A stretch of DNA of 44,379 nucleotides from an uncultured SAR116 cluster alpha proteobacterium (GTDB lineage: Bacteria > Pseudomonadota > Alphaproteobacteria > Puniceispirillales > GCA-002684695). Position 1 is the first letter of the stretch. Every line of letters starts with the position of its first letter. This document shows positions 15,157-43,980 of this stretch, in pieces. The notes under the pieces are model-generated. The model did not search any database. It saw only the letters and a list, made by a program, of their open reading frames with translations, and had not been told where the DNA came from. Position numbers and translations under genes: made by a program. The DNA lies in the NCBI GenBank assembly GCA_902532475.1, contig CACAIE010000011.1:1-44379 (forward strand), in the 5' to 3' direction.

Positions 15157-15202
15157 CAGATGACGGTAATACCCGAAGAAGAGCTTTTAATGGAGTATGT
15201 TC

Positions 15203-15781: not shown

Positions 15782-15798
15782 ATTATAATTAACGAACA

Positions 15799-22075: not shown

Positions 22076-25000
22076 ATGTCATTCTATACCGCCCTTACAG
22101 GACTTAATGGTGCTTCTGCCGATATATCGGCAACCTCAAATAACATAGCAAACGTTGGTACTACTGGATTTAAAAGAAGTAGAGCTGAATTTGGTGATAT
22201 TTTTGCGACTTCACCATTGCAGAACGCGTCATCTTCTATTGGTTCTGGTACAATTCTTAAAGGTATCAAGCAGCAGTTTACACAGGGTAACATTTCATCC
22301 TCCCTGAACGCGTTGGACTTAGCTATATCTGGTCAAGGATTTTTTGCTTTGAAGCCTTCTCTGACTTCTGCGCAGATCGTTTATACTAGAAATGGATCAT
22401 TGAGTGTTAACGATGATAGATACGTTGTTGATTCTGCTGGTCAGTATTTATTAGTTTTCCCAGTTAACAATGACGGATCTGTTACTGCTAAAGATATAAT
22501 TAGTGCTTCACCATTGCAACTTCCTGTTACTTCTGGTGAACCTCAAGCGACAAATAATATTCAAATTGGTGTAAACGTTCCCGCTGGCGCTGAAGTTGTA
22601 ACTGAGAAATCTGCTTTTGCAGATGGATATACTTTCAACCCGTCAAACCCAGAAACATATAACAACTCAACATCAATTACGATCTTTGATGATTTGGGTA
22701 ACCCAACAATTGCAACAATTTACTTTATCAAAACTCAAACAGCGTCAGCAGAAGATCCAACAAATAAAGTCACAACTAAACTTGTTATTAATGACACTGT
22801 CATTGATCCTGATCTTGTTAAGTCTATTGACGATGCAGGCAAGCAACAGTTCATAGATAAATTTGGAAACATCACTACAAAAGTTCCAGATGATAACTAC
22901 TTCCTTGAAGGAAAAGGCTCAAAGCTTTACAAAGCGGATGACTTAAAGAATAAAGTTAACTCCTCACCAGCACAAATAAAAGGTGAAATAAGCGAATTTG
23001 ATTTTGGGGAAGAAGGTGACAGATTAGTTGAAATTGTTACTGACCCAATGCAATTTAAATCAACACGTGAAGCAGGTAACGCTGATTCAAGAGTTTACTG
23101 GGGGAAGAACTTTCTCACATTGAATGTTGATAATGGTGACCAGCCATTGAACATTGACTTAAATCCAGGAAAATATAACGCTGACCAACTCGCTGCCGAA
23201 GTTCAAAGAGCTATTAACGCCGCCTATGGTGACGACAAAAAAGTTCAAATCGTTCAAAACGTTGACGATGCTGTAAACATTCAATTTTATAAACTTCAAG
23301 CAGACGGCTCGTCTCAGGGCTTGACCACAGCTATTAATGTTGACTTGCTGACAGATAGTTACGTGTCAACAACTGAATCGATCAACCTTACAGGTGCTTC
23401 ACCTGATTTTACTAGAAACCAATTTCTTGCGCACAGTCAGGCCAAAGTAAATGAATCTCTCAACCAATACGCAGTGAACAAATACGATGTGGTTTCTGGA
23501 GCTCAAACCTTGGGTGTTTCAAATAAATTGTTTGGGAAAAGTATTGGCGGAACGATGACAGAAGTACTTGAATCAACACAAATTGTAACCGTAGAACATA
23601 GAACTAGCGCCAGCACAGATGGCTCAGGTGATACGTCTGCTGATAAATATGTGTGCTACTCGTATTATGACAAAAGGCCAAATCTCTCAGTGTATGACAG
23701 TAAGCAAAATGTTGCTGCAGACGGCGGCAATACCTTTGAATTTAGCGCCACAGAAAACACGTTGAAAGTTTACACGACTGGCGCTCCAGCAGGCTTAGCC
23801 AGTGGCGATAAAATAAGAATTGCAGGCTCTCAAGCAACTGCCGACGTCAATGTTGCAGACACAGATTTAACTAAATTTAATTACATTAATGGACGTGAGT
23901 TTACTGTGAGTAGCGTCAATACAACTGCCACTCGTCCATTCATTTTAGTCAATACAACGGGTTTAACTTTCCCTGATGACGCTTTTAACCTTAAAAGTGC
24001 AAAATTTAGAGTTTTGAGTGACCCTTCAACTCAAGTTGAAGCTTACTTTGAGGGTGCGACAAATGTATTTGAAGGATCAAAAGTTAACTTTAACAGTAAA
24101 AAGATAGCTTTAAGAGAGATCGGCACCACAAATAAGCATGCTTATACAAACTCTCAGGTTGCAGGTCATGGTGTGGTTAATACTTCAGCATTGAATAACA
24201 CAGATACTTTTACTCGTACCGCTCATGAATTCCAAGTTGGCGATGAAATTATTTATACAGCTGCAGGTACTGCTAGAACTGGACTTTCATCAGGTACTAA
24301 ATACTATATACAAAATGTACCTAATGCTAACAGTTTCAAAATTGCTGCATCTAAAGGAGGTGCCGCATTAACCATTCCTAATGGTGCAACAGATGGCAAT
24401 ACCAACGATATTTTTATGAAGACTAATAATGTTGCAACTGGTGGTATTTTTAAAATTAAATCAACTCATGAGTATGACAACCTGCAAACCGTAACAGAAA
24501 CAGCAAAAATTGTTACCACAGTTCCAGCCGTATCCGATGAAACAGGTATAACTAACCATGGATTTGTAACAGGTGACGAAGTGACATACACATCATCTGC
24601 TGCAGCTACTGGACTTACTTCAGGCAATACTTACTATATAATCAGACTAGACGACAATAACTTTCAGCTTGCTACAACGCATGCCAATGCTAAAGCTGGC
24701 ACAAACATTAATATTACAGGAGCGGGTCACGCTGCTGATACATTTACCCGATCAGCCAGAGATTCAATCGGTGTTCTGGGTCTAGGAGACCTATCTTCTT
24801 CAACTGACTGGGTTGATGAAAATGAACCTCCAGTGAAACTTACTTACGATAATATCAACCAAAGATTGAATTTTACTGTCGACAGAAACGTTTTGGGTAC
24901 TGGTACTGACAGTAACTTTAATAGTTTTGCCGTATACGGTGCGTCATCAGCTAATTCAACTAACAATTTAGGAATACCAACTCTTGATGATACAACTGAA

Positions 25001-29876: not shown

Positions 29877-30197
29877 ATGGAAAATTATATCATTCCTGGC
29901 TTAGATCCAAAAACTTCATATGAAATAAGCAACAAGGCAACAAAAAAATTAAATCCAAATAAAACTAGCCTCAATGAAGCAGCAGAGCAGTTTGAAGCCT
30001 TATTTTTAGCGCAAATGCTGAAATCAGCACGAGCTGCTAAATTATCTGAAGATGTCTTGGGAAATTCAGCCACCGAAACATATTACGCAATGATGGACAA
30101 TGAGCTTGCTCAAAAATTATCTAAAGCAGGAAATTTTGGAATTGCAGAGGCATTAATCCGTCAATTTGGTGGAAATGTTGAGGATGAAGGTAAGTAA
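29877..30197 (+). CDS. flgJ: Rod-capping protein FlgJ, N-terminal domain only
   Basis: A 106-aa protein corresponding to the FlgJ rod-binding domain: AAEQFEALFLAQMLKSARAA, ETYYAMMDNELAQKLSKAGN, FGIAEALIRQF. The C-terminal muramidase domain of enterobacterial FlgJ (about 313 aa in all) is absent. It should cap the rod during assembly but cannot cut peptidoglycan; the transglycosylase at 6143 may supply that function. Its stop codon overlaps the flgK start (TAATG), so the two are translationally coupled. Confidence 0.92.
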   Translation: MENYIIPGLDPKTSYEISNKATKKLNPNKTSLNEAAEQFEALFLAQMLKSARAAKLSEDVLGNSATETYYAMMDNELAQKLSKAGNFGIAEALIRQFGGNVEDEGK

Positions 30198-33100
30198 TGT
30201 CTAGTCTTTTTGATATTGGTAAAAGCGCCATTCAATCTTATAGGCAAGCCCTTGCAGTCACTGGCCAAAACATAGCCAACGTAAATACTGATGGTTATAA
30301 AAGAAGAGAGGCTGATCTAAAAGAGGTTGGCGCGAGTAGCGGTAGCGTTACGTCAACCGGTAATTCAGCGGGCTTGGGTGTTCGTGTAGAAGACATCAGA
30401 AGGTCATTCGATCAATTTTTATTAGATAGAACTAGAAGTTCTATCGCAAATTATGAAAAGCTTAAAGCCTATACAAACCAAATGAAATATCTTGAGGACA
30501 CTCTGCTCCCTGGGGATTCCGATATTGGAAGTTATATTGGTCGTTTCTTTGGATCTCTTCAAGACTTAGCAGCAAACCCAGGAGACTTAGCCCCAAGAAC
30601 TGTAGCACTAGAAGAAGGGAAAAGTTTAGCTGGAGCTTTCAGGAATTTGTCAACACAACTTTCTGATATGCAAAAAAATGGAAGGTCTCAAGCTGAAGAC
30701 ACTTGCACAGCAATCAATACCATCGTAAATCAACTCGTTGACGTTAATAATCGACTGTTATCATCAAGTCTCGGAAGCTCCCCTAACTCAACACTTGACT
30801 TGAGAGATAGACTTCTGGAAGAACTATCAAAACTTACAGACATATCAGTATCATACAATGAAAGAAAAGATGTCACAGTAACTATTGGCAAAACTGGCGC
30901 AGGACCCAAAATACTATCAGGTAAAGTTGGAACTAAAATGGGCGTTACAGATACTGGCGGCGTCATTCAAGTATTGATGGGGGCCGGAACAACTAACACA
31001 CCTACAAACCAAGTTACAGGTGGAATTTTAGGTGGTGTCGTAGATTCTTTCGCCTTAGTTGGTGACACTAACAGAGACATTGACAATCTTGCCGTTCTCA
31101 TTACCGAAACATTAAACGAACAGCACAAGCAGGGGCTTACTCTTGATGGAAAGCAAGGAGAGAATATTTTTACTACATCCGGAATGACTGTAACCCCTGG
31201 AAGAGCAAATAGATCCGTTGTTTCTGCAGAAATTGTTATCAATGACATTGAAAAACTTCCAACTGGATCACTAACTGCAAAGTATATCGAATCCCAAAAC
31301 AGATGGTCTTTATCTGGCACTTCGCTGAAAGAAGATATTTTTGGAACAACCACAATTAAAGGTCCCGGATTTTCAATGAACATTTTAGGGAAACCAATTG
31401 ATGGTGACGAGTTAAGTACATCACCCCTGACTGGCGCTGCTTCTGGAATGCAATTTATGCTTCGAAGGGCACAGGATTTTGCCGCAGCATCCAAAACACT
31501 TGTCAGCGCAACTGTATCAAATAAAGGAACCGCAGACATAACCGCGACTGTCGATAAAATCGCATCTTCAGAAAATCCCCCAAATGTAGCAAAAGTATTT
31601 ACTGACTCTAATTCGCCACTTACAGCTACAAATTTCTTAAGTGATGGAGCAGTGGCATCAATACCTGCCGGGTCTCAAACTGCTGAATTGCTTAGTTTTA
31701 AAACTCAGTCACAAATGAATTTTCAGTTAACTGCAACTGAAATCCCTACAACGACTTCACTGTCTTTAGAAGTAAACAGTGCCCAAAATACATTTGATTT
31801 AACCTATTCAAGTGTATACCCAAAAGCAGGGGCAACAGAAAAGTGGAAATCGTGCAATGAAATCGCTACCGCCTTAAACAGAGGCATTATTAAAAGTGCA
31901 AGCTCGCAAACTCTTTCTGACATTGGTTTGTATGCTTCCGGATCTGGAGGCAGTATTACCTTTGCGTCATCTCGATATGATTTTTCTGGTCAGTCTACTA
32001 TGCTCTCCGGTGGGGGTACCATTCTTGGGATTAGGAAAGCATCAGCCTTACCTTCAAATGTTCAAGTGTTTACCAGAGAAGGTCGTCACTTAGCAGGGAC
32101 ACCTTTAACAAAAGAGGACATCGCTAAACTTATTTCAACTGATAACGGATTTAATAAAGGTGCTACTTACAGAGCTGATTACTTAAATTTAACAGGCGCA
32201 GATGCCTACAGAGGTCTTTCCATAGAACGAAAAACTGCGGCTGGCGAGCATGTTATTACTCTTGGCAATAATAGTAACTCAGTAACGACAAACACTTCAG
32301 GTATTGGATCAGCAGTTGGGGCAACTATAACCTCAGGCACAAATCATGGCTTCGCTGTAGGCGATACAGTACAATATTTTGCTAATAGTACAGCCTTAAC
32401 AGGTTTAACTGATAAAGCATTATACACCGTTGGGTCAATCAATGGAACAACGCAGTTTACATTAACCAACAGGGACGGCACCACCATCACTTACGGAGGA
32501 GGAAACGGCCATGCAAGTGATACATTTAAGTTATATAATGTAAACAATTCTGGCACCCTTCCCTCCAAAACAATATTCCCTGACAGTGCTGTTTCAGCGT
32601 GGAATGCAAGTATCTCTATGTTTGGTGGCGAGAGTGGTAATGTTGACATTCCAGCGGGATCTTCAGCTGGATACACAGCAAAGCAAATCAATAAAAATCT
32701 AGCCAATTTAGGTGTGCAAGCTTCAGCCATTACCAGAGTTGAACTATCTATGGCTGAAATAGGTTCAATTACATTTGCAAGAACAAGAAAAAATGAGGGC
32801 CAAGCTATAGAGCTTTCATCTACCTATGGGGGTGCAGTAGATAATCTTACAAAATTTAGAGTTGGAGATACAATACAATATCTTGATGCTTTAACACATA
32901 GAGATGACGGTGTTAATCATGGCGGACCATTAAATGGCTTAAGTACATACGGGCTTTATCAAGTCGCTTCTATTGTTGGAAATACAATGACTTTAAAAAA
33001 CACCGATGGAAGCACATTAGTTTATGGCAATAATGGTTCGGTAAGTGGAACAGGCGATGACTTTACACATGATAGGTTTGAACTCATCAGGAGAACTGGG

Positions 33101-36100
33101 CAAGTTACGATGGACTTTGAATCTAAAAACCAAGATGCCATTAGTATAAACGCTACTATTGCCTCAGATGATATGGGCGACTTAGCAAAGAAAATCAATG
33201 AGCATTCTGCGAATACTGGTGTTAAAGCTTATCTTTCAGTCGACAAAAAGAAAATCGTTCTTGAAAGTCAAGACGGTGACGACATTATGATGTCTGAATT
33301 TTTAGCTTCAAGCACTCCCTTAAATGTCAAAACCCTAGGCGATGATTTTGAAGATTTAGGGTCAGAAATTAAATTAGATAGCACCACGTTTGATGCAGCA
33401 AGATTTACTGGTTACGTTCAACTCAATTCAGGCGGTTCCTTCTCCATGACAACGACTGCTGGAGCAAATACTTCAACTTCATCAAGTGCAACAGATGTTT
33501 TTGAAAATGGTTATATTGAAAAAAGCATGACGCCGACTGGCGAGCAAATGACATTAAAATTTGATGCTTTTGAAGGTGCTGACGGTAATGGTTCTTCTGT
33601 TGATGGTACTATGGCTCTAGCAGCTGGCGGCCAATATAAATTGACTGTACCGAATACTGGGTCTGGAACCTCTTTTTCTTCAACTGTTGACACTAAAAAC
33701 TTAGAAAGCATAACTTCTTCTAGTGTTGCCTCTGCCATAGCTAAAAATTTGAGGTCAGGTTCTATTATAGCATCAGTTTCAGGCAAAAATGCTGTAAGTG
33801 AAATTCCTGCAGCAGGTGAAAAACTAGTCGTTAAATTTGCTGAACAAAACTATACGCTCACTATGCTTGATAATGGCCGTGATGCTGTTCCTGCAACTGC
33901 CACCTTCTCTGTCTCCAACGCTGACGGAGTTGCTGCTGCTGGCAACCACATACATTTAATTTTATCAGCAGGAATGGAGCCAGAAATAGACATAGATTAC
34001 ACAGTTGTGGCAGGCCAGACTAATATTTCAAGCATTGTATCAGGTTTGAATAGTGCCTTAAACACAGCTGGATCTGCAGATAAATATTCATTCTCTTTTC
34101 AAGGTGCAAATATTAAATTATCAAGAACTGATGGTGTTAATTTTCAACCCTACAAAGGGGCGAACCATACTACGAGTATCTTATTTTATGATGGTGTCGA
34201 CATTAGAACTGGCGGAGGAAGAGAAGCAATTAATGGAGCCACAGCGAATAAAACATTAGTAACGACTGACGGAAGGATGGAAGTTGAAAGAGAAATTTCT
34301 ATATCTGGTGGAGAAATAAATAGATTAGATGCGTATTTCGATCAAAATAAAAAGTTACAGATATTTGCTGGAGGTAGTCTCTCAGGCCAGCAAATTACCA
34401 TCCCTGATGACAATGCTGTTTCAGGAAACAGTAACGCAGCCATCCGTTTCGGTATTGACCAGGCTATAGGAACCCTTTCTGGAAGTGATATTTCTGTCCC
34501 CGCAGCGACTACAACCTCTTCAATTAAAGTTAAAGATACCAACTACAATTTAACTGTAAACCCTAATAACGGTGGTAAAGTTACAGCAGCATTAGCGGAT
34601 GCTCATTCTCATAATCCTACATCTATTCTAGAAGGAATAACTGTAAATTGGATGAGTGATATTATTACTTCTAATACGACAGGCATCGCATCTTCTGCTG
34701 GTGCGATAATAGCCGCAGACAGTGACCCTGAATTTCAAGTGGGTGAAAAAGTAAAATACTTTAAAGGTGGGACAGCACTCAATGGGTTAACACACAATAC
34801 TGAGTATACTGTTGCATCAGTTGTCAAAAAATCCAGTTCAAAGGCTAACACTAGTGGGATTGCTGCTGCTAACAACGCTACCATTACAACTGCAACTCCC
34901 CACGAGTTCAAGGCTGGAGATTTTGTAAAATATGTTAAAAGTGAAGATACCTCAAATTTAAATAATTTATCTAGTGGTACAGTTTATAAAATTAAAGTGG
35001 TTATTGGAACAAATCAATTTAAACTTCAAAGAGCTAATGGTGCTGATTTTTCATACGGTGGAAGTGGAGGAAGCACAGCGGACGGCTTTATCAGATCACA
35101 TGGTTTTTCTTTAAAAAGCTCGTCGGGTGCAACCATCACATACGGCGGTGGAAACGGCCACGCAGCTGATCAGTTTGTAAAATCTGAGCATACTAGAATA
35201 GCTAATACAGCGGGGCAAACTAACAATACATCTGCAACAATCACAGTTGGTGAAGGTCATGGATTTAAAGCGGGTGATACTGTGAGATATATTTGTATGG
35301 ATGGTAGCAATGTCCAAGGATTATGGCCAAACACAGATTATAAAGTGAAGGCTCTTGTTGGAACAACAGGAATTTCACTTCAAACAACTGGGGGTGCTGA
35401 TTTTGCCTACTTAGGAACAGGCGGCAGTGCACATGATGTTTTTGTGAAAGCTAATGGCCGGGTTGTGATTGAAACTGACGCCTACAGTGGAAAAACATAC
35501 AAAGTTGCTCAAACTGCTACTGCAGAAACTCTGGGGTTAAAAGCCTCAGATTACCGAGTTAACGTTGACGGAGAAAAAGTGATTATCACTTCCACCGAAG
35601 GAAAAGTTGTTGCAGCTGACACTTCAGGAACAAATACAAGCGTAACAAGTTTGATTGGAAGTAATATTTCTATCAAAAATGTCCCCAATGAAGATCTTGT
35701 AATGATCGTAAATGGAGGAGGCGCGAGAAGTGTAGCAAGCAGATCAGACCCCCCTCTTCCAAATTACATAGCCAATCCTAATAACATAGACATCAAAGTA
35801 TCAAATACTGAGGGCAGCGTAATAGAATTTCTCGACGCTACAACAGGTCACTCGATTGCAACTCGCACTTTAGACACAGTTGGAAGAGCAGAAGCTGCAG
35901 GATACAAAGTTATTGTCAAAGGCAAAGGTCAACTGGACGATACTTTTAAAATCTCTGATAACGCTGGAGGCACTGGAGACGCAAGAAACCTTGATGCCAT
36001 GATCATGCTCCAAACCCAAGACGCCAGCGGACCAAATTCAGGAGGTTTTAGAGAGGTTTTTGACAATATCGTTACAGGAATAGGCGCTTCAGTCTTATCA

Positions 36101-36289
36101 GGAGACTTGTCTTTAGAAGCTGCGGAAGCCACTAAGGAAGCCGCCATGGCATCAGAATTAGAATTTTCAGGGGTTAGCCTTGACACAGAGGCAGCTCAGC
36201 TTCTTGAGCAACAGCAAGCATTCCAGGCATCCGCTAGGATATTATCAACTGCAAGACAATTATTTCAAACACTACTGGACGTAGTCTAG
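30197..36289 (+). CDS. flgK: Giant hook-filament junction protein FlgK (HAP1, 2030 aa)
   Basis: One uninterrupted frame of 2030 residues; FlgK is usually about 550 aa. The N terminus is canonical (IQSYRQALAVTGQNIANVNT, then DGYKRREADL and the D1 region with PGDSDIGSYIGRFFGSLQDL), as is the C terminus (SGVSLDTEAAQLLEQQQAFQ, then ASARILSTARQLFQTLLDVV). The ~1400-residue insert is Ser/Thr/Asn/Gly-rich and beta-strand-like. It carries five copies of an ~82-residue module (residues about 699-780, 883-965, 1493-1550 plus its separated second half, 1551-1633 and 1670-1752) and a flagellin-IN-like segment (INEHSANTGVKAYLSVDKKK). Three Cys (about 170, 553, 1700) are unusual for an exported axial protein. 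Confidence 0.95.
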   Translation: MSSLFDIGKSAIQSYRQALAVTGQNIANVNTDGYKRREADLKEVGASSGSVTSTGNSAGLGVRVEDIRRSFDQFLLDRTRSSIANYEKLKAYTNQMKYLEDTLLPGDSDIGSYIGRFFGSLQDLAANPGDLAPRTVALEEGKSLAGAFRNLSTQLSDMQKNGRSQAEDTCTAINTIVNQLVDVNNRLLSSSLGSSPNSTLDLRDRLLEELSKLTDISVSYNERKDVTVTIGKTGAGPKILSGKVGTKMGVTDTGGVIQVLMGAGTTNTPTNQVTGGILGGVVDSFALVGDTNRDIDNLAVLITETLNEQHKQGLTLDGKQGENIFTTSGMTVTPGRANRSVVSAEIVINDIEKLPTGSLTAKYIESQNRWSLSGTSLKEDIFGTTTIKGPGFSMNILGKPIDGDELSTSPLTGAASGMQFMLRRAQDFAAASKTLVSATVSNKGTADITATVDKIASSENPPNVAKVFTDSNSPLTATNFLSDGAVASIPAGSQTAELLSFKTQSQMNFQLTATEIPTTTSLSLEVNSAQNTFDLTYSSVYPKAGATEKWKSCNEIATALNRGIIKSASSQTLSDIGLYASGSGGSITFASSRYDFSGQSTMLSGGGTILGIRKASALPSNVQVFTREGRHLAGTPLTKEDIAKLISTDNGFNKGATYRADYLNLTGADAYRGLSIERKTAAGEHVITLGNNSNSVTTNTSGIGSAVGATITSGTNHGFAVGDTVQYFANSTALTGLTDKALYTVGSINGTTQFTLTNRDGTTITYGGGNGHASDTFKLYNVNNSGTLPSKTIFPDSAVSAWNASISMFGGESGNVDIPAGSSAGYTAKQINKNLANLGVQASAITRVELSMAEIGSITFARTRKNEGQAIELSSTYGGAVDNLTKFRVGDTIQYLDALTHRDDGVNHGGPLNGLSTYGLYQVASIVGNTMTLKNTDGSTLVYGNNGSVSGTGDDFTHDRFELIRRTGQVTMDFESKNQDAISINATIASDDMGDLAKKINEHSANTGVKAYLSVDKKKIVLESQDGDDIMMSEFLASSTPLNVKTLGDDFEDLGSEIKLDSTTFDAARFTGYVQLNSGGSFSMTTTAGANTSTSSSATDVFENGYIEKSMTPTGEQMTLKFDAFEGADGNGSSVDGTMALAAGGQYKLTVPNTGSGTSFSSTVDTKNLESITSSSVASAIAKNLRSGSIIASVSGKNAVSEIPAAGEKLVVKFAEQNYTLTMLDNGRDAVPATATFSVSNADGVAAAGNHIHLILSAGMEPEIDIDYTVVAGQTNISSIVSGLNSALNTAGSADKYSFSFQGANIKLSRTDGVNFQPYKGANHTTSILFYDGVDIRTGGGREAINGATANKTLVTTDGRMEVEREISISGGEINRLDAYFDQNKKLQIFAGGSLSGQQITIPDDNAVSGNSNAAIRFGIDQAIGTLSGSDISVPAATTTSSIKVKDTNYNLTVNPNNGGKVTAALADAHSHNPTSILEGITVNWMSDIITSNTTGIASSAGAIIAADSDPEFQVGEKVKYFKGGTALNGLTHNTEYTVASVVKKSSSKANTSGIAAANNATITTATPHEFKAGDFVKYVKSEDTSNLNNLSSGTVYKIKVVIGTNQFKLQRANGADFSYGGSGGSTADGFIRSHGFSLKSSSGATITYGGGNGHAADQFVKSEHTRIANTAGQTNNTSATITVGEGHGFKAGDTVRYICMDGSNVQGLWPNTDYKVKALVGTTGISLQTTGGADFAYLGTGGSAHDVFVKANGRVVIETDAYSGKTYKVAQTATAETLGLKASDYRVNVDGEKVIITSTEGKVVAADTSGTNTSVTSLIGSNISIKNVPNEDLVMIVNGGGARSVASRSDPPLPNYIANPNNIDIKVSNTEGSVIEFLDATTGHSIATRTLDTVGRAEAAGYKVIVKGKGQLDDTFKISDNAGGTGDARNLDAMIMLQTQDASGPNSGGFREVFDNIVTGIGASVLSGDLSLEAAEATKEAAMASELEFSGVSLDTEAAQLLEQQQAFQASARILSTARQLFQTLLDVV
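32291..32533 (+). repeat. HxF-GD-Y module, FlgK copy 1
   Basis: About 81 residues (FlgK 699-780): opens NTSGIGSAVGATITSG, core NHGFAVGDTVQYFA, then GLTDKALYTVGSI, FTLTNRDGTTITYGGGNG and closes GHASDTFKL. The clearest complete copy. Confidence 0.82.
32843..33090 (+). repeat. HxF-GD-Y module, FlgK copy 2 (diverged)
   Basis: About 82 residues (FlgK 883-965): core KFRVGDTIQYLD, an expanded loop, GLSTYGLYQVASIVG, MTLKNTDGSTLVYGNNG and closing HDRFEL. The His-x-Phe is replaced by Lys-Phe, so it is a diverged copy. Confidence 0.65.
34673..35181 (+). repeat. HxF-GD-Y module, FlgK copy 3, split by an inserted copy
   Basis: The first half (34673 to about 34846) runs NTTGIASSAGA, FQVGEKVKYFKG, GLTHNTEYTVASVV. 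The second half (about 35105-35181) runs FSLKSSSGATITYGGGNG and GHAADQFVK, which matches the end of copy 1. Copy 4 lies between the halves. Confidence 0.7.
34847..35095 (+). repeat. HxF-GD-Y module, FlgK copy 4 (nested in copy 3)
   Basis: A complete 83-residue copy (FlgK 1551-1633): NTSGIAAANNATITTAT, PHEFKAGDFVKYVKS, LSSGTVYKIKVVIG, FKLQRANGADFSYGGSGG and ADGFIR. It interrupts copy 3 between its third and fourth motifs. Confidence 0.75.
35204..35450 (+). repeat. HxF-GD-Y module, FlgK copy 5
   Basis: About 83 residues (FlgK 1670-1752): NTAGQTNNTSATITVG, GHGFKAGDTVRYICMDG, LWPNTDYKVKALVG, ISLQTTGGADFAYLGTGG and AHDVFVK. Confidence 0.78.
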
Positions 36290-36298
36290 GAGGATTAA

Positions 36299-37585
36299 AT
36301 GCAAGTAAGTACAAAACTATTCAATCAACAAGCAGTCAACCAATTCGGAAAACTCACTGAGCAAATCCAAGATTTGCAAGCTAAAGTATCCACTGGAAAA
36401 AATATTTTGAGGTCATCGGACGACCCAGTTGCTGCTGTTGAATTATCAGCTGCAAAAGAGCAAAAAAATATTTTGGAACGATTTAAAAGAAATGTAGATT
36501 CCGCTCAAAGACGTTTAGATCTTGCAGACGCTTCAATTCAGCAAGCAGTTAATGTAATGATAAGAATTTCAGAGTTAGCTATTCAAGCTGGCAACGACAC
36601 TAACGGTGTGGCTGAAAGAGTTGCAATCAGAACTGAAGTTGAACAGCTTTCCAATGTAATGATGGAAATAGCTAATACAAGGGATGCTCAAGGGCAAAGT
36701 CTATTTGCTGGTTACCATACAAATTCTCAAGCCTTCAGAAAGAATGTCGACGGAACTTTTGAGTATTTGGGAGATCGCGGCACGCACTCAGTTCAAATCT
36801 CAGAATCGATGAATGTAGCGACTTCCATTGACGGTGGCACTGCATTTCAAACAGTTGACACGGGCAAAGGAAGAAAGAGCACTTTTGATATTATTTCAAA
36901 TACGATTAACGCCATAAGCACTGCCTCTGGACTTTCCAGACAGGGCTCTGGGACAGCCTCCGCATCTTTAGATTTTAAAGTTCCGAGAGACCCTCAAAAC
37001 TGGACCTTCACTTTGACAGGAAGTAAAGGAGCCAAAACCATCAATACTACTATATCTGAAGGAAAATTCAGTGACGTGGTTAATAAAATCAATGCAGAAA
37101 CCGCTAATACTGGCATTTCGGCAGCTCTGGATAATGCTACTGGTAGAATTACTCTTACTGAAACACAAAGCAGGCTAATTAAAGTTGACAATATCCAAAT
37201 TGAGGGTATGGATTTCTCATCATCTGAAGTAAAAAGTTACGTTGACTTTAACACATTATCAGGTGACGGTACAGTTGTTGGGGCCTACAGAAGGTTAACT
37301 GACGTTGATCAGTTGATTTCTAGTTCTGTGACTGACGTTCAAAAGGCTAGCGACCATCTGAGTCAACAAAGAGCCTTTCTTGGAGCACAGATAAATAAAG
37401 CAGAACATCAAAAAGACTCACTTGACCAAAGAATTATAGCAACTTCCGAAAAAATTTCAGACATTGATACTGCTGATATGGCAGCGTTGGTTACCAAGCT
37501 ACAAAGCTTACTTCTTAATAAGGATGCAGCGCAGCAGGCATACGCAAAGATTAGTCAAAGCAGTCTTTTTGATTATCTAAAGTAA
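36299..37585 (+). CDS. flgL: Hook-filament junction protein FlgL (HAP3)
   Basis: A 428-aa flagellin-like protein. The N terminus has LQAKVSTGKNILRSSDDPVA, the FlgL form of the flagellin N-terminal motif. A middle domain includes a flagellin-IN-like strand-helix unit (INAETANTGISAALDNATGR). The C terminus ends in TKLQSLLLNKDAAQQAYAKI. It is moderately longer than the usual ~300-320 aa but not giant. A strong AGGAGG lies before the start, nine bases after flgK. It links FlgK to the filament. Confidence 0.93.
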   Translation: MQVSTKLFNQQAVNQFGKLTEQIQDLQAKVSTGKNILRSSDDPVAAVELSAAKEQKNILERFKRNVDSAQRRLDLADASIQQAVNVMIRISELAIQAGNDTNGVAERVAIRTEVEQLSNVMMEIANTRDAQGQSLFAGYHTNSQAFRKNVDGTFEYLGDRGTHSVQISESMNVATSIDGGTAFQTVDTGKGRKSTFDIISNTINAISTASGLSRQGSGTASASLDFKVPRDPQNWTFTLTGSKGAKTINTTISEGKFSDVVNKINAETANTGISAALDNATGRITLTETQSRLIKVDNIQIEGMDFSSSEVKSYVDFNTLSGDGTVVGAYRRLTDVDQLISSSVTDVQKASDHLSQQRAFLGAQINKAEHQKDSLDQRIIATSEKISDIDTADMAALVTKLQSLLLNKDAAQQAYAKISQSSLFDYLK

Positions 37586-37718: not shown

Positions 37719-39203
37719 ATGGCTTCTATCAATAGTGACTATATGTCCCAAATGGTTCTGCAAAGCCTTAACAAGACTGACGCAGACATGACAAAGGCGA
37801 TGCAAAGACTCTCTACAGGCAAAAGAATTAACCAAGCATCAGACGATGCTGCGGGTTTGTCTATTGCCAGTAAGTTGCAGGCTCAAGTTAATGGCCTAAA
37901 CGCTGCAATGAAAAACGCATCCGATGCCATTGCCATGGTTGGAACAATTGAAGGCGCCCTTAATGAAGGAACTAACATACTCCAAAGAATGAGACAATTG
38001 GCAGTTCAGGCAGCTTCAGATACAAACACAGGGACAGACCGAGCGTACCTTCAAGATGAAGTTAACCAACTCGCAACAGAACTGAATAGAATTTCTAATA
38101 ACACTGAATTTAACTCACAAAAATTACTAGATGGGACATTTACTGATAAGGTCATTCAAATCGGCACTGCCGGTGGTCAGGTTTTAAGGCTTGGCGTTGC
38201 GGCAACTGATGCTGGGACTTTAGGAACCTATCAAATTAATTCTGCCAATGAAGTAACAGCCGCCGCCGCTAGTGCAAATGCCGCTTTAACTGCTGTAAAT
38301 GCTCTGTCACATGGTGATGCAGATTACGTAGCCAAGGGATCCTTTGGAACAACAACAGCGGCAGTTGACGCCGGAGCAGACGCAAGAGATGTCGCGAGCG
38401 CTTTTAACATCATATCTGGTACAACTGGAATTTTAGCGCAAGCTATTACCAGAGGGAAACTAACCTTTGCCTCTAATGCAACGTATACTTTTACTCTGCA
38501 AGGCAAAAGTTCAACTGCGTCTACAGTGACAGCGACAATCACTTCAACATCCGATGTCACTGCAATAAAAGACGCCATCAACGCAGTTAGTGGATCAACT
38601 GGAATAACAGCTGCACTTACAACCGATAAAGCCGGAATTCTGATGGTTCAAGAAGAAGGTTACGATATGATCTTTGGAGATATGACTGGAGGGAATGCTA
38701 CTTTGTATACATTGGACAGAGAGGAAGCTGTCGGCTCCAATATAACACTAACTAACGGAGGCGATGACAGTGGCGCCTTACTAGGGCAAGTGACACTCTC
38801 AAGCCATCAGGCGTTCACAGTAACTCCTGGGAATGCCGCTAACGGCTTTGCAGCAAATACCAATGAGATAGCATCAACAAAAGCCGCAATAGCAAATGTC
38901 TCCCTAGTGACAAAAACAGGCGCAACAAACAGCTTGTCAGTTATAGATGGCGCCCTTGCTATGATTTCTGAGATAAGATCATCCATGGGTGCAGCAAATA
39001 ACCGATTAAAGTCAACTGTTGATAACTTAAGTAACATCGCAGTAAACGCTCAAGCATCACTCTCAAAGATCGAAGACGCAAATTTTGCTGAGGAAACTGC
39101 AGGCCTTACAAAAGCACAGATTCTTCAGCAAGCCTCAACTGCCATGTTAGCCCAGGCCAATAAAGGCAAGCAAGGCATGCTTCAACTTATCGTCAATTTA
39201 TAA
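37719..39203 (+). CDS. Flagellin 1
   Basis: A 494-aa flagellin. The N-terminal D0/D1 is typical (AMQRLSTGKRINQASDDAAG, then ILQRMRQLAVQAASDTNTGT), as is the C-terminal D1/D0 (IEDANFAEETAGLTKAQILQ, then QASTAMLAQANKGKQGML). The variable middle domain (about 207-390) includes a flagellin-IN-like motif (FTLQGKSSTASTVTA, then INAVSGSTGITAAL). It begins MASINSDYMSQ, the same subtype as flagellin 3. The ribosome site GGAG precedes the ATG. No clear terminator follows. Confidence 0.96.
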   Translation: MASINSDYMSQMVLQSLNKTDADMTKAMQRLSTGKRINQASDDAAGLSIASKLQAQVNGLNAAMKNASDAIAMVGTIEGALNEGTNILQRMRQLAVQAASDTNTGTDRAYLQDEVNQLATELNRISNNTEFNSQKLLDGTFTDKVIQIGTAGGQVLRLGVAATDAGTLGTYQINSANEVTAAAASANAALTAVNALSHGDADYVAKGSFGTTTAAVDAGADARDVASAFNIISGTTGILAQAITRGKLTFASNATYTFTLQGKSSTASTVTATITSTSDVTAIKDAINAVSGSTGITAALTTDKAGILMVQEEGYDMIFGDMTGGNATLYTLDREEAVGSNITLTNGGDDSGALLGQVTLSSHQAFTVTPGNAANGFAANTNEIASTKAAIANVSLVTKTGATNSLSVIDGALAMISEIRSSMGAANNRLKSTVDNLSNIAVNAQASLSKIEDANFAEETAGLTKAQILQQASTAMLAQANKGKQGMLQLIVNL

Positions 39204-39280
39204 TTTATACTTTTATATAAATTAATCAATGCATTACAACCCAATAGAAAGATCAATAACTAAGATCAAAAAACATTTTT
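39204..39280. other. Short AT-rich gap after flagellin 1
   Basis: There is no gene and no strong terminator hairpin here. It leads into the decayed TPR/SGNH-like region at 39281-39829. Confidence 0.5.
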
Positions 39281-39829
39281 AATGCTTACTGTTTCATTAG
39301 ACCAGTCCTTTACCAAGGCAAATAAATTTACCAAACAAGGTGACATTCAAAAAGCCATTAATATCTACAAGATGGTTTTACAAAAATTTCCTAAAAACTT
39401 TAAAGCATTAAAAGCTTAAAAAAGTATTTGTCCTAAATCGACTGAAGATGATCAAAATCAATTAGTGCACTTATATGAGCAAGGTTTGATTAGTGAAGAG
39501 ATATTAGAGCTATTATCAAAAAAACAGTTAATGGATATTTAAATTTTCTAAACCATATATTGAAAAAAAGAATATTGAGCCATACTTCCTTTCAGTCCCT
39601 GCACCATTTATAGATCCGAAAAAATGCTCTCACAGAGAAAAATTACGTATTTTTGTGGTGGAAAAATTCAATCAAGTCTTGAAAAACGTCACCAATAATT
39701 CACTTGGGAAATATATTGATAAGTTACTCTATCACAAAAAATAAAATGGATGCTTCAAATATGAATTACATGGTTGATAATATTCATCTTCACCCAAAGA
39801 TATTGAACCTAATTCAAAACAAAATATAA
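39281..39829 (+). pseudogene. Remnant of a TPR-SGNH-like protein, broken by stops and a frameshift
   Basis: A conceptual translation across several stops gives three coherent pieces. From 39281: a TPR-like unit (AINIYKMVLQKFPKNF) ending in a TAA at about 39418, then in-frame continuation with HLYEQGLISEEILELL to a second stop near 39539. From about 39546, in another frame: FLSVPAPFIDPKKCSHRE and FNQVLKNVTNN to a stop near 39742. From 39745, shifted again: MNYMVDNIHLHPKIL. TPR 'A-x-x-x-Y-x-x-v-L-x-x-F-P-x-N' units followed by an SGNH-hydrolase-like end ('D-x-x-H-L') suggest a former polysaccharide- or flagellin-modifying enzyme. The assignment is by eye. Confidence 0.55.
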
Positions 39830-39848
39830 TATATAGAATTTCTTTATT

Positions 39849-40382
39849 TTATGTTTGAACGGCGTCAAAGATAGAAAATTCTTTCAAAGAAATCTCTTTC
39901 AAGAAATCAATATCATTTTCCTGGTCAAGCGACCAGCCTGTCGGGGCTGAAGGCGTTGCACCTGAACGAAGTGAATACATGTACGCTTTAAAACTTCTAA
40001 CAATTATCTTCTCATCGTAATGCAATACCCTTTCACCGTCAAAGATATCTCCCAAAAGCAATTTACGAGTTCTTTTTTTCCCTATACTCTCAAAGTTTAC
40101 AGTAAAATATATAAAACCAGTTATATATTTCATTGAATCTGAACCAGCCTCAATCTCTGCTAATATCCTGATAATATCTTCTGAAATTGAAGCCATCTCT
40201 ATAGGGTTAATTTCTTTGTATTTTTCAGATAATTCCTTACCATATTTTCGACTGAGAAGGTCTAGTGGAATGTCCTTCTCTATGAAATCTTTTATTATCA
40301 TTCCAATACATGATGTGTAAACCCATTGAGGGCAGTATCCACTCATCGCAACACCTTGAGGTTTAAGTAACTTTGCAAGCAT
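39849..40382 (-). CDS. Hypothetical protein with its own sigma-54-type promoter
   Basis: A 177-aa soluble protein on the opposite strand between flagellins 1 and 2. It has no signal peptide and no membrane helix. The first half is helical (YTSCIGMIIKDFIEKDIPLD, then SISEDIIRILAEIEAGSDSM); the second half looks mixed (VNFESIGKKRTRKLLLGDIF, then HYDEKIIVRSFKAYMYSLRS). I recognise no domain. A -24/-12 element with correct spacing lies about 40 bases upstream (40423-40438), so it probably belongs to the flagellar regulon. It could be a flagellin-specific chaperone or translational regulator in the manner of FlbT/FlaF, but nothing in the sequence proves that. Confidence 0.75.
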   Translation of the reverse strand: MLAKLLKPQGVAMSGYCPQWVYTSCIGMIIKDFIEKDIPLDLLSRKYGKELSEKYKEINPIEMASISEDIIRILAEIEAGSDSMKYITGFIYFTVNFESIGKKRTRKLLLGDIFDGERVLHYDEKIIVRSFKAYMYSLRSGATPSAPTGWSLDQENDIDFLKEISLKEFSIFDAVQT

Positions 40383-40422
40383 ATCGTATCACACATAATT
40401 AAAAAATATAATATGGATATTT

Positions 40423-40438
40423 GCAAAATTAATGCCGT
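40423..40438 (-). promoter_or_regulatory. Sigma-54-like promoter of the 177-aa gene
   Basis: The minus-strand reading is ACGGCATTAATTTTGC, with GG and GC ten bases apart; -24 is CGGCAT instead of TGGCAC and -12 is a perfect TTGCAA. It lies about 41 bases upstream of the ATG at 40382. Confidence 0.65.
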
Positions 40439-40623
40439 TTATAAATAATCTATATAATAATGCCAGTTTATATTTTTGAGAAGACAATTAATAAAAAAAT
40501 CTTGAGAGATTTTGTAGAAATATCAATTTTTTGCATCTATAAACGACTTGGCATCAAATTGTTTAGAAATAAAAAAAAATAAATAAAAACAAAGACTTTT
40601 TTAATTTTTTATTAAGTTTTTTC

Positions 40624-40674
40624 CTAATATTTTTTAATATATGACGTTTGTTATTTTACGGAGTTGGTCAGCGC
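40624..40674 (+). promoter_or_regulatory. Conserved promoter/leader element of flagellin 2
   Basis: A ~51-base block matching the one before flagellin 1: CTAAT, CGTTTGT after sixteen intervening bases, GGAGTTGGTCAGCGC at the right end. The right end lies 47 bases from the ATG at 40722, against 46 in flagellin 1. Confidence 0.5.
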
Positions 40675-40721
40675 AATTGGTCCTCTCCGGGATTGTAATT
40701 AATAACATAAAGGAGACGACC

Positions 40722-42206
40722 ATGGTGTCAGTCAATACTAATATTGCGTCTTTACAAGCGCAAAACTCCCTAAGGGGAACACAAGGTGAATATGAGAATG
40801 CAATGCTAAGATTGTCTACAGGTAAAAAAATAAATGGCGCAGCTGATGATGCTGCTGGTTTATCTGTGGCTAGTAGCATGACTGCTCAAATCAAAGGCTT
40901 AAAGATGGCATCTAAAAATGCATCTGACGGCATTTCCTTGGTAAATACTGTCGAGGGTGCACTTGATGAAGCAACAGGAATTTTACAAAGAATGCGTGAA
41001 CTTTCTGTGCAAGCGATTTCAGATACTAATAACGGCAGTGACAGAACATATATTCAAGATGAAATTAATCAACTTAACAACGAGTTGAACAGAATTTCTT
41101 CAACAACACAGTACAACGGACTTAATGTTCTTGATGGAAGTTATACTGACAGAACAATTCAAATTGGTAACTTAAGCAATCAAGTTATGAAATTTGGAGT
41201 GGCTTCAAGTGATACAACTACATTAGGAGCTTTCCAGATAACATCACTCGCTTCCGCTACAGCAATCGCTGCGAATGCCGCTGCTGCAGAGACAGCTGCA
41301 ACCGCATTAGTTAATGTTGGCGCCGACTATATTTTACAAGGGTCTTTTGGAACTAAAACAGCTGGCGTTGACGCAGGTGCAAATGCTCGCGACACTGCTA
41401 AAGCGGTCAACTTACTATCCGGTGAAACTAATGTTAAGGCAACCGCTATTACTAAAGCGAGGTTCACACTCGCAGCTACAGGTACAGTTACTTTCACAAT
41501 TAAAGGCAAAAGTTCCACTGCATCTACTGTGACAGCGACTAACGCAGCAATAACAGATTTAACCGCTACTAAAGACGCGATTAACGCTGTTTCAGGCTCA
41601 ACTGGTGTAACTGCAACTTTGAACGCGGCTAAAAATGAAGTTTGGCTGGTTCAGGCTGAAGGATACAACGTTGTTATCGGTGATGTTTTAGGTTCAAATA
41701 TGGTGCTATCAGCTCAAGATCCAGATGATGCTGCTTCAACAGCAGTGACGTTAGCAACTGGTGGTGATGACTCTTCAGCAGTTGTAGGTACTGTTAGACT
41801 ATCTAGTGATAAGTCATTTACCTTTACACCTCAACATGCTGCTAACTTGTTTTCTTGGGCTACTACTGCAATTGCATCTAGTTTAACTCAACTTGGAGAC
41901 GTTTCTTTAAAAACAGTAAACGGTGCAACAAATGCTATATCAGTAATTGATCAGTCATTAGCAATGGTTGCATCTTCAAGGTCACAGTTAGGTGCTATCC
42001 AGAACAGACTTACAAGCACAGTAAACAACTTAAGCAATATAATTCAAAAAACAGAGCAGTCTAGGTCTCAAATAACTGATGCAGATTTCGCAACAGAGAC
42101 AACTGCTTTATCGAAAGCTCAAATCTTACAGCAAGCGTCAACAGCAATGTTGGCTCAAGCGAACCAGGCAAATCAAGGAGTACTTCGTTTGCTTCAGGCG
42201 GGATAA
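40722..42206 (+). CDS. Flagellin 2
   Basis: A 494-aa flagellin starting MVSVNTNIASLQAQNSL, the canonical FliC-type N terminus (unlike flagellins 1 and 3). D1 motifs: AMLRLSTGKKINGAADDAAG and ILQRMRELSVQAISDTNNGS. The C terminus is ITDADFATETTALSKAQILQ followed by QASTAMLAQANQANQGVLRL. The middle carries the same IN-like unit (INAVSGSTGVTATLNAAKN). AGGAG lies before ATG 40722; a longer frame to 40641 is open but has no ribosome site, and its extra residues are not flagellin-like. Confidence 0.96.
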   Translation: MVSVNTNIASLQAQNSLRGTQGEYENAMLRLSTGKKINGAADDAAGLSVASSMTAQIKGLKMASKNASDGISLVNTVEGALDEATGILQRMRELSVQAISDTNNGSDRTYIQDEINQLNNELNRISSTTQYNGLNVLDGSYTDRTIQIGNLSNQVMKFGVASSDTTTLGAFQITSLASATAIAANAAAAETAATALVNVGADYILQGSFGTKTAGVDAGANARDTAKAVNLLSGETNVKATAITKARFTLAATGTVTFTIKGKSSTASTVTATNAAITDLTATKDAINAVSGSTGVTATLNAAKNEVWLVQAEGYNVVIGDVLGSNMVLSAQDPDDAASTAVTLATGGDDSSAVVGTVRLSSDKSFTFTPQHAANLFSWATTAIASSLTQLGDVSLKTVNGATNAISVIDQSLAMVASSRSQLGAIQNRLTSTVNNLSNIIQKTEQSRSQITDADFATETTALSKAQILQQASTAMLAQANQANQGVLRLLQAG

Positions 42207-42240
42207 CAAGACCGCCATTGGGATGATTTGAGTGACTGAC

Positions 42241-42262
42241 GGCAAATAAAGTTGAATTTGCC
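42241..42262 (+). other. Hairpin after flagellin 2
   Basis: Inverted repeat GGCAAAT (42241-42247) and ATTTGCC (42256-42262) with an eight-base loop. No T tract follows, so it is not a classical terminator. Confidence 0.5.
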
Positions 42263-42272
42263 AACAAAGGAA

Positions 42273-42306
42273 GGCCCGGCCGTTAGAGACCACTGACGGC
42301 CAGGCC
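42273..42306 (+). terminator. Strong GC-rich stem-loop between flagellins 2 and 3
   Basis: GGCC-C-GGCCGT (42273-42283) pairs with ACGGCC-A-GGCC (42296-42306), one mismatch, twelve-base loop. It is very stable for such an AT-rich genome. It lacks a U tract, so it may be an mRNA 3'-end protector or pause site rather than an efficient terminator. Confidence 0.55.
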
Positions 42307-42316
42307 TAAATAAACC

Positions 42317-42371
42317 AAGGGTTAAACCCTTATAACTAGGAGATAAGGGGAAACCCTTAACAAGGAGATAA
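42317..42371 (+). repeat. Duplicated hairpin plus ribosome site before flagellin 3
   Basis: Two near-copies follow each other: AAACCCTTATAACTAGGAGA (from 42324) and AAACCCTTAACAAGGAGATA (from 42351). Each has AAGGG...CCCTT complementarity (42317-42331; 42345-42358) and an AGGAG ribosome site. Only the second AGGAG is well placed for the ATG at 42377. Confidence 0.7.
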
Positions 42372-42376
42372 ATAAA

Positions 42377-43873
42377 ATGACCTCAATTAACAGTGACTTT
42401 ATGTCCCAACTGGCTTTAAGAAGCCTCGGAAATTCTTCCAACATGATGACACAAGCAATGGAGAGACTTTCAACAGGTAAGAGAGTGAACTCTGCAGCTG
42501 ACGACGCAGCTGGTCTTGGCATCGCAACTAAATTAAGAGCTCAGGTAAACAGTTTAAACGCTGCTACAAGAAACGCCACTGACGCTTTAGCACTCATCGG
42601 AACAATCGATGGTGCCTTAGAAGAATCTGGCGAAATCCTTCTTAGAATGAGAGAGCTAGCTGTTCAGTCAGCATCTGATACAAATACTGGTACAGACCGA
42701 TCTTTCCTTCAAGATGAAATTAACGCTCTTAACAACGAACTAAACAGAATTTCAAGTTCAACTGAATTTAACTCTGTGAAGTTGTTAGACGGTACTTACA
42801 ATAACAAGTCAATCCAAATTGGCACTGGTGCAAACCAAGTGTTTAATATTGGCGTGACATCCTCTGACTCATCAACATTAGGCGCTTACGAATTGAATTC
42901 TGGTGCGTCTGCCACTGCAGCTGTTGCTACATCTGCTGCTGCTGTTACAGCTTTGGAAGCATTAGTTGTCGACGCTGCTGACTATTCTGTTGCAGGTTCC
43001 TTTGGCACAGAGACAGTAAAAGTGGGAGCCGGTGCCAGCGCTAGAGATGCTGCACAGGCTTTTAACTTAAGTGCTGGAACAACAGGGATCAATGCGTCTG
43101 CGGTAACTAAAGCTAATATTGCTTCAATATCAGCTCTTGGTACATATACTTTTTCTTTACAAGGTAAAAGTGACACTGCTTCTGTGGTTAATGCTACCAT
43201 TGCTAGTGTGTCTAACTTGACTTCTTTAAAAGATGCCATTAACTCAGTGTCCGGTTCAACTGGCATTAATGCTTCTTTGACTGCAGACTTGTCAGGTATT
43301 AAACTCGTGCAACAGGATGGCTATAATGTAATAGTTTCAGGGGTATTAGGTGCAGGTAATATAGTAATGGATGCAGCTAACAGAAACGGCAAATCAAATA
43401 CTGGTGGCCAAGTAACACTAGGTGCGGCTGTGGGTACTGACTCAGCCGGTTTCGTTGGATCAGTTGCCTTGACAAGTCACAAAGCTTTTACAGTGACACC
43501 AGGGAACGCTGCCAACCACTTTACCCATCTCGATACTGCTCAAGCATCTTCACTATCAAAGATGGGAGACGTTGACATTTCAAAACAAACTGGCGCGACA
43601 AACGCCATATCCGTTATTGACGGAGCCCTTGCAATGGTATCTGAAGTCCGCTCAGAAATGGGTGCAGCCCAAAACAGGCTGACATCTACAGTGGACAACC
43701 TAAGCAATGTATCCGTTAACACACAGAGGTCGCTGACTTCAGTAGAAGATGCGAATTTCGCATCAGAGACATCTGCGCTGACCAAGGCTCAAATTCTACA
43801 GCAGGCAGCCACCTCTATGCTTGCCCAGGCAAATAAAGCCAAGCAAACAATGCTCGTATTGTTACAAGGCTAA
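42377..43873 (+). CDS. Flagellin 3
   Basis: A 498-aa flagellin starting MTSINSDFMSQLALRSL, the same subtype as flagellin 1. D1 motifs: AMERLSTGKRVNSAADDAAG and ILLRMRELAVQSASDTNTGT. The C terminus is VEDANFASETSALTKAQILQ and ends KQTMLVLLQG. The middle (from about 213) again contains the IN-like unit (INSVSGSTGINASLTADLSG). It is followed by a strong Rho-independent terminator. AGGAG stands about nine bases before the ATG, in a duplicated leader. Confidence 0.96.
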   Translation: MTSINSDFMSQLALRSLGNSSNMMTQAMERLSTGKRVNSAADDAAGLGIATKLRAQVNSLNAATRNATDALALIGTIDGALEESGEILLRMRELAVQSASDTNTGTDRSFLQDEINALNNELNRISSSTEFNSVKLLDGTYNNKSIQIGTGANQVFNIGVTSSDSSTLGAYELNSGASATAAVATSAAAVTALEALVVDAADYSVAGSFGTETVKVGAGASARDAAQAFNLSAGTTGINASAVTKANIASISALGTYTFSLQGKSDTASVVNATIASVSNLTSLKDAINSVSGSTGINASLTADLSGIKLVQQDGYNVIVSGVLGAGNIVMDAANRNGKSNTGGQVTLGAAVGTDSAGFVGSVALTSHKAFTVTPGNAANHFTHLDTAQASSLSKMGDVDISKQTGATNAISVIDGALAMVSEVRSEMGAAQNRLTSTVDNLSNVSVNTQRSLTSVEDANFASETSALTKAQILQQAATSMLAQANKAKQTMLVLLQG

Positions 43874-43899
43874 AATAACAAAAAATGCCCGTGGCATAT

Positions 43900-43928
43900 G
43901 GGGAGGGGTAACACCCTCCCCTTTTTTT
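43900..43928 (+). terminator. Rho-independent terminator after flagellin 3
   Basis: GGGGAGGG (43900-43907) pairs perfectly with CCCTCCCC (43914-43921), six-base loop, followed by seven T (43922-43928). A small additional hairpin ATGCC/GGCAT lies just upstream (43885-43897). Confidence 0.92.
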
Positions 43929-43944
43929 GGCATGGATATTGCTC
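43927..43944 (+). promoter_or_regulatory. Sigma-54 promoter of flagellin 4
   Basis: The site reads TTGGCATGGATATTGCTC with GG at 43929-43930 and GC at 43941-43942, ten bases apart. It begins in the T tract of the preceding terminator and lies about 40 bases upstream of the ATG at 43981. Confidence 0.82.
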
Positions 43945-43980
43945 ATTCACCTCGACCTCAATTTTTAGAATAGGTGTATT

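Follow-up and report, generated by a model that had tools for sequence, protein, structure and literature searches.

In Salmonella, eleven copies of the junction protein FlgK form one ring between the hook and FlgL (PMC12221982). The outer region of FlgK is known to vary; FlgK of Burkholderia pseudomallei carries an extra outer domain, D3, and in Campylobacter jejuni the outer region of FlgK has diverged alongside an enlarged hook protein (PMC5691160). Among marine gammaproteobacteria, giant flagellins were described in Bermanella and Oleibacter, with FlgK unmentioned (PMC6248924). While outer FlgK domains, co-divergence of FlgK and the hook, and giant flagellins are therefore already known, we found in the open-access literature no report of a giant FlgK or of SAR116 flagella of such a kind, and none of a module common to FlgE, FlgK, FliD, and flagellin. 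The giant FlgK and the four-protein module sharing described below thus appear to be new within that literature, where absence is weak evidence.

SAR116 bacteria (Puniceispirillales) belong to the groups of bacteria that are common in the surface ocean. We analyzed a stretch of 44,379 nt from an uncultured member of this group (hereafter the window), which contains the genes flgB-C-D-E-F-G-H-I-J-K-L, in this order, followed by fliC/flagellin genes. In this flg operon, the position between flgJ and flgL is occupied by a single uninterrupted ATG-TAA frame encoding a protein of 2030 residues (211.7 kDa). The start of this frame overlaps the stop of flgJ, and AGGAGG stands before flgL. FlgJ itself consists of the rod-binding part alone, without the muramidase domain. 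The large product scores 235.8 bits with the equivalog model TIGR02492 (flgK_ends; cut-off 170.75) and exceeds the Pfam cut-offs for FlgK_D1 (PF22638, 2e-50, residues 97-325), Flg_bb_rod (PF00460), and Flg_bbr_C (PF06429, residues 1988-2028). It is therefore a member of the FlgK family, in an enlarged variant that lies outside the usual size of 450-900 aa, a range that is typical of FlgK rather than defining.

The initial annotation had proposed a giant FlgK of 2030 residues, about four times the normal size owing to an insert of ~1400 residues, with a normal C-terminal end and normal neighbours. The intact frame and the TIGR02492 score bear out the giant protein, and the Flg_bbr_C match bears out its ordinary C-terminal end. 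The factor of four holds relative to Salmonella FlgK (553 aa) but drops to 2.9 relative to the sampled alphaproteobacteria with normal FlgK (median 708 aa), and the large insert is somewhat longer than claimed, with ~1,610 residues (331-1940; 167 kDa) between the conserved ends. As for the neighbours, FlgF, FlgG, FlgH, FlgI, and FlgL are ordinary in length, whereas FlgE, at 1429 aa, is the exception.

Table 1 Features of the flagellar locus, with positions in the window.
Feature	Residues	Position	Strand	Basis
flgE, giant hook protein, 1429 aa		22076..26365	+	Pfam/NCBIfam; FlgE_D2 split by ~900-aa insert
Beta module copy in FlgE	702-782	24179..24421	+	Sequence search
Beta module copy in FlgE	815-892	24518..24751	+	Sequence search
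flgJ, 106 aa, immediately upstream of flgK		29877..30197	+	Pfam
flgK, giant hook-filament junction protein (HAP1), 2030 aa		30197..36289	+	ORF, Pfam, TIGR02492
FlgK conserved N-terminal part, D0 + D1	1-330	30197..31186	+	Flg_bb_rod, FlgK_D1; 75-99% identity per 100-residue block in genus
FlgK D2-like domain	331-444	31187..31528	+	Foldseek to Salmonella FlgK; 4ut1 sequence match
FlgK TREGRH module	445-690	31529..32266	+	Conserved in all giant FlgKs
FlgK beta module copy 1	700-778	32294..32530	+	Sequence search
FlgK beta module copy 2	868-957	32798..33067	+	Sequence search
FlgK Flagellin_IN motif	973-1024	33113..33268	+	PF07196, 1.2e-9
FlgK second conserved stretch of insert	~1090-1425	33464..34471	+	Conserved across giant FlgKs
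FlgK beta module copy 3, truncated	1494-1554	34676..34858	+	Sequence search
FlgK beta module copy 4	1552-1633	34850..35095	+	Sequence search
FlgK beta module copy 5, fragment	1634-1662	35096..35182	+	Sequence search
FlgK beta module copy 6	1671-1751	35207..35449	+	Sequence search
FlgK return via D2-like region (TGHSIATR...GTGDARNL)	1795-1945	35579..36031	+	Conserved across giant FlgKs
FlgK C-terminal D1/D0	1946-2030	36032..36286	+	Pfam; dN/dS near 0
flgL, 428 aa, normal size		36299..37585	+	Pfam
Flagellin 1, 494 aa		37719..39203	+	Pfam
Flagellin 2, 521 aa		40641..42206	+	ORF
Flagellin 3, 498 aa		42377..43873	+	ORF

Both ends of the window's FlgK match those of Salmonella (2d4y, 9go6) and B. 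pseudomallei (4ut1) FlgK by sequence, and the D0/D1 core and D2 are alike; those proteins have 553-673 aa, whereas here 2030 residues accommodate a ~1,610-residue outer part with several further modules. As in C. jejuni, the outer region of FlgK is altered together with an enlarged hook protein, but C. jejuni FlgK has a mass of 67 kDa, against 211.7 kDa, and a different D2. Moreover, the enlarged junction protein in Campylobacter and related organisms is FlgL (750-950 aa), which has 300-434 aa here. The flagellins of Bermanella and Oleibacter share with the window's FlgK an oversized tandem-repeat outer domain between conserved axial-protein ends and a marine host; there, however, the giant is flagellin, present in thousands of copies, whereas here it is FlgK (11 copies) together with FlgE, and the window flagellins have ~500 aa. 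Lastly, a gammaproteobacterial FlgK of 830 aa (L177) shows the motif FTRDGRQL..G..YLN..Y.GM in the corresponding outer region but is devoid of the beta modules and of most of the insert described below.

The insert is a mosaic of a FlgK-type D2, a module that we term TREGRH, a Flagellin_IN unit, and about six copies of a beta module. Since the AlphaFold models of two insert fragments were poor as a whole (pLDDT 51.9 and 43.6, pTM about 0.3), we considered only their local domain matches. The best part of the N-terminal model is its first, D2-like, 83 residues: residues 331-412 align with D2 of Salmonella FlgK (9go6, rmsd 2.7 Å over 86 columns; 2d4y, 2.3 Å over 87) with a Foldseek probability of 1.00, and the sequence match to 4ut1 runs to residue 449. 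The same model taken whole matches D2/D3 of Pseudomonas aeruginosa FliC, also with a probability of 1.00. The TREGRH module displays a motif that is near-invariant among giant FlgKs, VFTREGRHLAGTPL...NGF...YRADYLN...YRG, and that recurs in the 830-aa gammaproteobacterial FlgK and in other flagellins of the phylum, where it lies in the variable region; e.g., four flagellins of other Proteobacteria (L207, L208, L209, and L210) carry DGRHLAGT...NGF...Y in that region. Across 299 phylum genomes, the domain gave one clear FlgK match and four others, in flagellins, and we rejected the idea of a common gammaproteobacterial FlgK domain on this single FlgK match. A profile search of the PDB with the TREGRH domain returned no match. 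The Flagellin_IN segment (PF07196; 38.6 bits, gathering cut-off 22.7) resembles segments of the organism's own FliC and FlgL; going by Pfam, it is to be expected in FlgK, FlgL, and flagellin alike.

The insert is conserved. Two same-genus FlgK orthologues, of 2027 and 2029 aa, are intact and 79-80% identical to the window's protein, with 60-97% identity per 100-residue block and hardly any gaps in the insert. Its dN/dS in same-genus pairs is 0.07-0.08 (Nei-Gojobori), indicating strong purifying selection; 0.07 (L042-L043) is the safer value, since dS is near saturation in the more distant pair. The C-terminal core shows zero replacements in the closer pair. The giant FlgK is thus a maintained protein, neither decaying nor mis-assembled. 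An assembly artefact is ruled out by these orthologues and by the order-wide giants, including those in single-contig genomes, and, given uninterrupted long frames in dozens of separate genomes and an insert under selection, we regard as extremely unlikely any reading in which the gene is an artefact, a fusion, or a pseudogene. We rate the trimming of FlgK to normal size before assembly as equally improbable. We also rejected a recent foreign insertion, as the G+C of flgK (0.38-0.42) is similar to that of the neighbouring genes and the insert can be aligned across families, and a simple tandem duplication, as DNA-level repeats are weak and dispersed.

Conservation also bears on whether the insert has a selected function at all. 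Modules might duplicate and persist merely because type III secretion and an outward position tolerate them, and both the more than two-fold differences in FlgK length within the order and the tandem and dispersed self-repeats of FlgKs in family f4 agree with such neutral growth. Nevertheless, the low dN/dS of the insert, the conservation of residues 445-690 and 1090-1425 across the clade, and the persistence of the insert in genomes of small size (about 2 Mb) make it very unlikely.

The giant FlgK is order-wide in SAR116 and no one-off. FlgK_D1 was matched in 64 of 101 relatives, and all strong matches in SAR116 lie in ORFs of 1,114-2,475 aa, a range that counts complete ORFs and sets aside those shortened by contig ends. 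The nearest public contigs are from the SAR116-cluster single cells AG-899-J15 and AG-891-F06, with 90-91% over the N-terminal 325 residues of FlgK. For the class and the phylum, our figures come from the best-scoring matches listed. Among these, FlgK ORFs of the class sample mostly have 445-920 aa, the exceptions being G228 (1440 aa), G221 (1793), G302 (1698), G188 (1408), G370 (1697), and G132 (1186), together with G107 (1285 aa, cut by a contig end); in the phylum sample, the largest other FlgK ORF among the matches listed has 985 aa.

The beta module, of ~80 residues with the consensus GFxxGDxVxY...LxGLxxGxxYxV...FxL...YGG...DxF, is present in FlgK in about six copies, two of them partial. 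When the window's genome and those of four congeners were searched in all six frames, it was found only in FlgK (6), FlgE (2), FliD (1; the protein was identified by FliD_N and FliD_C), and flagellins (1-3). In the genus, module sharing is thus restricted to the axial proteins, and the beta module is private to the flagellum. Among 289 genomes of the class, the other clear matches are to FlgK/FlgE of family f11, accompanied by three weak single matches. Sharing extends to other modules, e.g., FlgK (residues 959-1161) and FlgE (residues 635-839) of a single-contig SAR116 genome (L132) have in common a stretch of 205 aa with 50% identity, in a module other than the window's. Significant FlgK-FlgE or FlgK-FliC segment sharing was detected in 15 of 44 loci, to which Flagellin_IN contributes part, versus 0 of 44 with reversed targets. 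Among the 44 loci compared, FlgE-FlgK sharing was undetected in most of those of families f2, f3, and f4, where divergence may hide it. In a tree of the modules, copies from orthologous positions cluster with one another, and those of FliD branch among those of FlgK; this 75-column alignment tentatively suggests that copies passed between the genes long ago.

The initial annotation had suggested a specialised hook-junction surface, with the FlgK insert building a bulky collar where hook and filament meet; on this reading, the collar would be a disk with a task of its own. It is true that FlgK, with 2030 aa, exceeds the other axial proteins here in length (1429 aa for FlgE, 428 for FlgL, and 494-521 for the flagellins) and holds the most beta-module copies (six), and that FlgK and FlgE are both giant and carry the same module. 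The specificity for the junction is not supported, however, as the module is also found in FliD and the flagellins, and in other SAR116 lineages FlgK is shorter than FlgE (1199/1390 and 1402/1575). We therefore consider a junction-specific collar unlikely. The presence of the module in FliD and flagellins instead indicates a coat spanning hook, junction, filament, and cap.

The relatives of the beta module in other proteins are weak. It shows sequence and local fold likeness to the small beta barrels of E1 FCCH and phage endosialidases, but below the curated cut-offs, and we claim no membership: PF16190 (E1_FCCH; gathering cut-off 29.5) scores 18.5 and 18.6 bits in FlgK and 28.9 in a sister flagellin, and PF12195 (endosialidase beta barrel; gathering cut-off 35) scores 14.5 bits. 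An adhesive coat, in which the modules bind glycans or particle surfaces and the flagellum is an attachment organelle, would be in line with the likeness to phage endosialidase/depolymerase barrels (PF12195 E=0.034; Foldseek 3gvk/1v0e, E<0.001 but probability about 0.2) and with that of the module profile to structures including a phage tail protein (10lj, E=0.0036; 4hiz, E=0.21). Yet all these matches lie under the curated cut-offs, the models are poor, and the top-ranking structural matches of high probability are to barrels of the E1 FCCH type, and these bind no glycans, so that adhesion as the explanation is doubtful. A phage origin of the module was rejected, as tblastn against 50,697 phage records gave no match.

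With regard to FlgE, the initial annotation had noted a large FlgE beside the giant FlgK, and this was confirmed by its 1429 aa and by the ~80-residue module that the two proteins share. FlgE is large across the whole SAR116 order, its complete ORFs reaching 1,747 aa, and is giant in all genomes of the one flagellar clade that have a giant FlgK and a measurable FlgE, including G228, G221, G302, G107, G188, and G370 (1254-1539 aa). Outside SAR116, a FlgE of at least 1254 aa is present in 6 of 7 giant-FlgK genomes versus 1 of 38 with normal FlgK (45 genomes, 6/1/1/37; Fisher p = 6e-6), although the six concordant giants form one clade and amount to essentially one evolutionary event. Two exceptions to the pairing were observed, a FlgK of 1186 aa with a normal FlgE (G132:C2:155113) and a second FlgE, of 1263 aa, alongside a FlgK of 746 aa (G258:C8:51517). 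For 36 SAR116 genomes, the lengths of FlgK and FlgE correlate with a raw r of 0.74; within families, however, rho is 0.15 (f3) and -0.05 (f4), which argues against a tight size-for-size fit and led us to reject strict length matching. The proposed survey of FlgK against FlgE length thus gave a split answer: across the class giant FlgK accompanies giant FlgE, in one clade, and inside SAR116 families their lengths are uncorrelated, indicating that the two proteins share the giant state but not exact lengths.

In a tree of FlgI and FlgG, the giant-FlgK systems (SAR116, f11, f19, and f92) form one clade (support 1.000) that adjoins sphingomonad flagella among those of beta- and gammaproteobacteria, far from native alphaproteobacterial flagella. 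Parsimony would place a single origin of giant FlgK and FlgE close to the base of the clade. Gene order, together with the FlgT_N, LPP20-type lipoprotein, and FlgM genes present in the window, points to a gammaproteobacterium-like polar flagellum. The FlgT_N protein and the FlgP-like LPP20-type lipoprotein (15197-16956) are Vibrio-like H-ring parts in an alphaproteobacterium. The window also contains, directly upstream of flgB, an acidic 268-aa ORF (19606-20412, minus strand) without a family match in Pfam or NCBIfam, in which 3.4 copies of a 63-nt tandem repeat, with a match of 99%, encode DEKSQDDTKSGEAEPAESEAS. At its other end (37719-44379) there are at least 4 tandem flagellin genes, of which three encode 494, 521, and 498 aa and one continues beyond the window. 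Flagellins have ~500-820 aa in the window's genus; giant flagellins of 1012-1590 aa occur in several giant-FlgK lineages (L144, L125, L126, L129, and L114). In two loci, a gene for a TPR protein lies beside that for FliD (L199:5868-7427 and L198:848-2398, both minus strand), with a C-terminal Glyco_transf_9 match in L199; glycosylation of flagellar proteins is a possible role.

A high-torque Vibrio-like motor could itself account for the enlargement, if, as has been suggested for Campylobacter, extra outer domains of FlgE and FlgK interlock to make hook and junction stiffer. The FlgT_N and LPP20 lipoprotein genes, the joint occurrence of giant FlgE and giant FlgK, and the divergence of C. jejuni FlgK with an enlarged FlgE (PMC5691160) all point in this direction. 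On the other hand, FlgK and FlgE lengths fail to co-vary within families, and the modules are also in the filament and cap, neither of which is a universal joint; we rate this mechanical adaptation as possible, although on the unlikely side.

The best explanation, and in our view a probable one, is an ordinary 11-subunit junction ring with an oversized, modular outer layer that continues the thick surface of the hook. As judged from the conserved D0/D1, the core of FlgK would assemble as the usual single ring of 11 subunits atop the hook, and, from established FlgK biology, the insert would project outward from D2. The outer part would consist of the FlgK-type D2 followed by a chain of beta-rich modules from a pool common to FlgE, FlgK, FliC, and FliD, adding to the ring an outer layer of ~1.8 MDa (11 x 167 kDa) that would continue the enlarged outer layer of FlgE. 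Such a layer is the simplest picture because FlgE has an insert of ~900 residues and the same modules. Modules may have been gained, duplicated, and copied among axial genes, leading to one kind of surface from hook to filament. As for the use of this coat, most likely it would protect the hook and junction, sterically or mechanically, and stiffen them; adhesion ranks second and neutral growth last, the latter because of the low dN/dS of the insert. More tentatively, it is plausible that the whole extracellular flagellum of SAR116 and its relatives is dressed in lineage-specific, intragenomically mobile modules used nowhere else, as a unified and evolvable coat (armour or adhesive) of which FlgK is the largest carrier.

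In summary, the giant FlgK would make a junction ring of ~2.3 MDa (11 x 212 kDa), which would test how much outer mass is tolerated by a universal joint and by type III export. The module sharing between FlgE, FlgK, FliD, and flagellin offers a direct route to study the exchange of outer domains between axial proteins, and also bears on the need for a matching surface on hook, junction, and filament.
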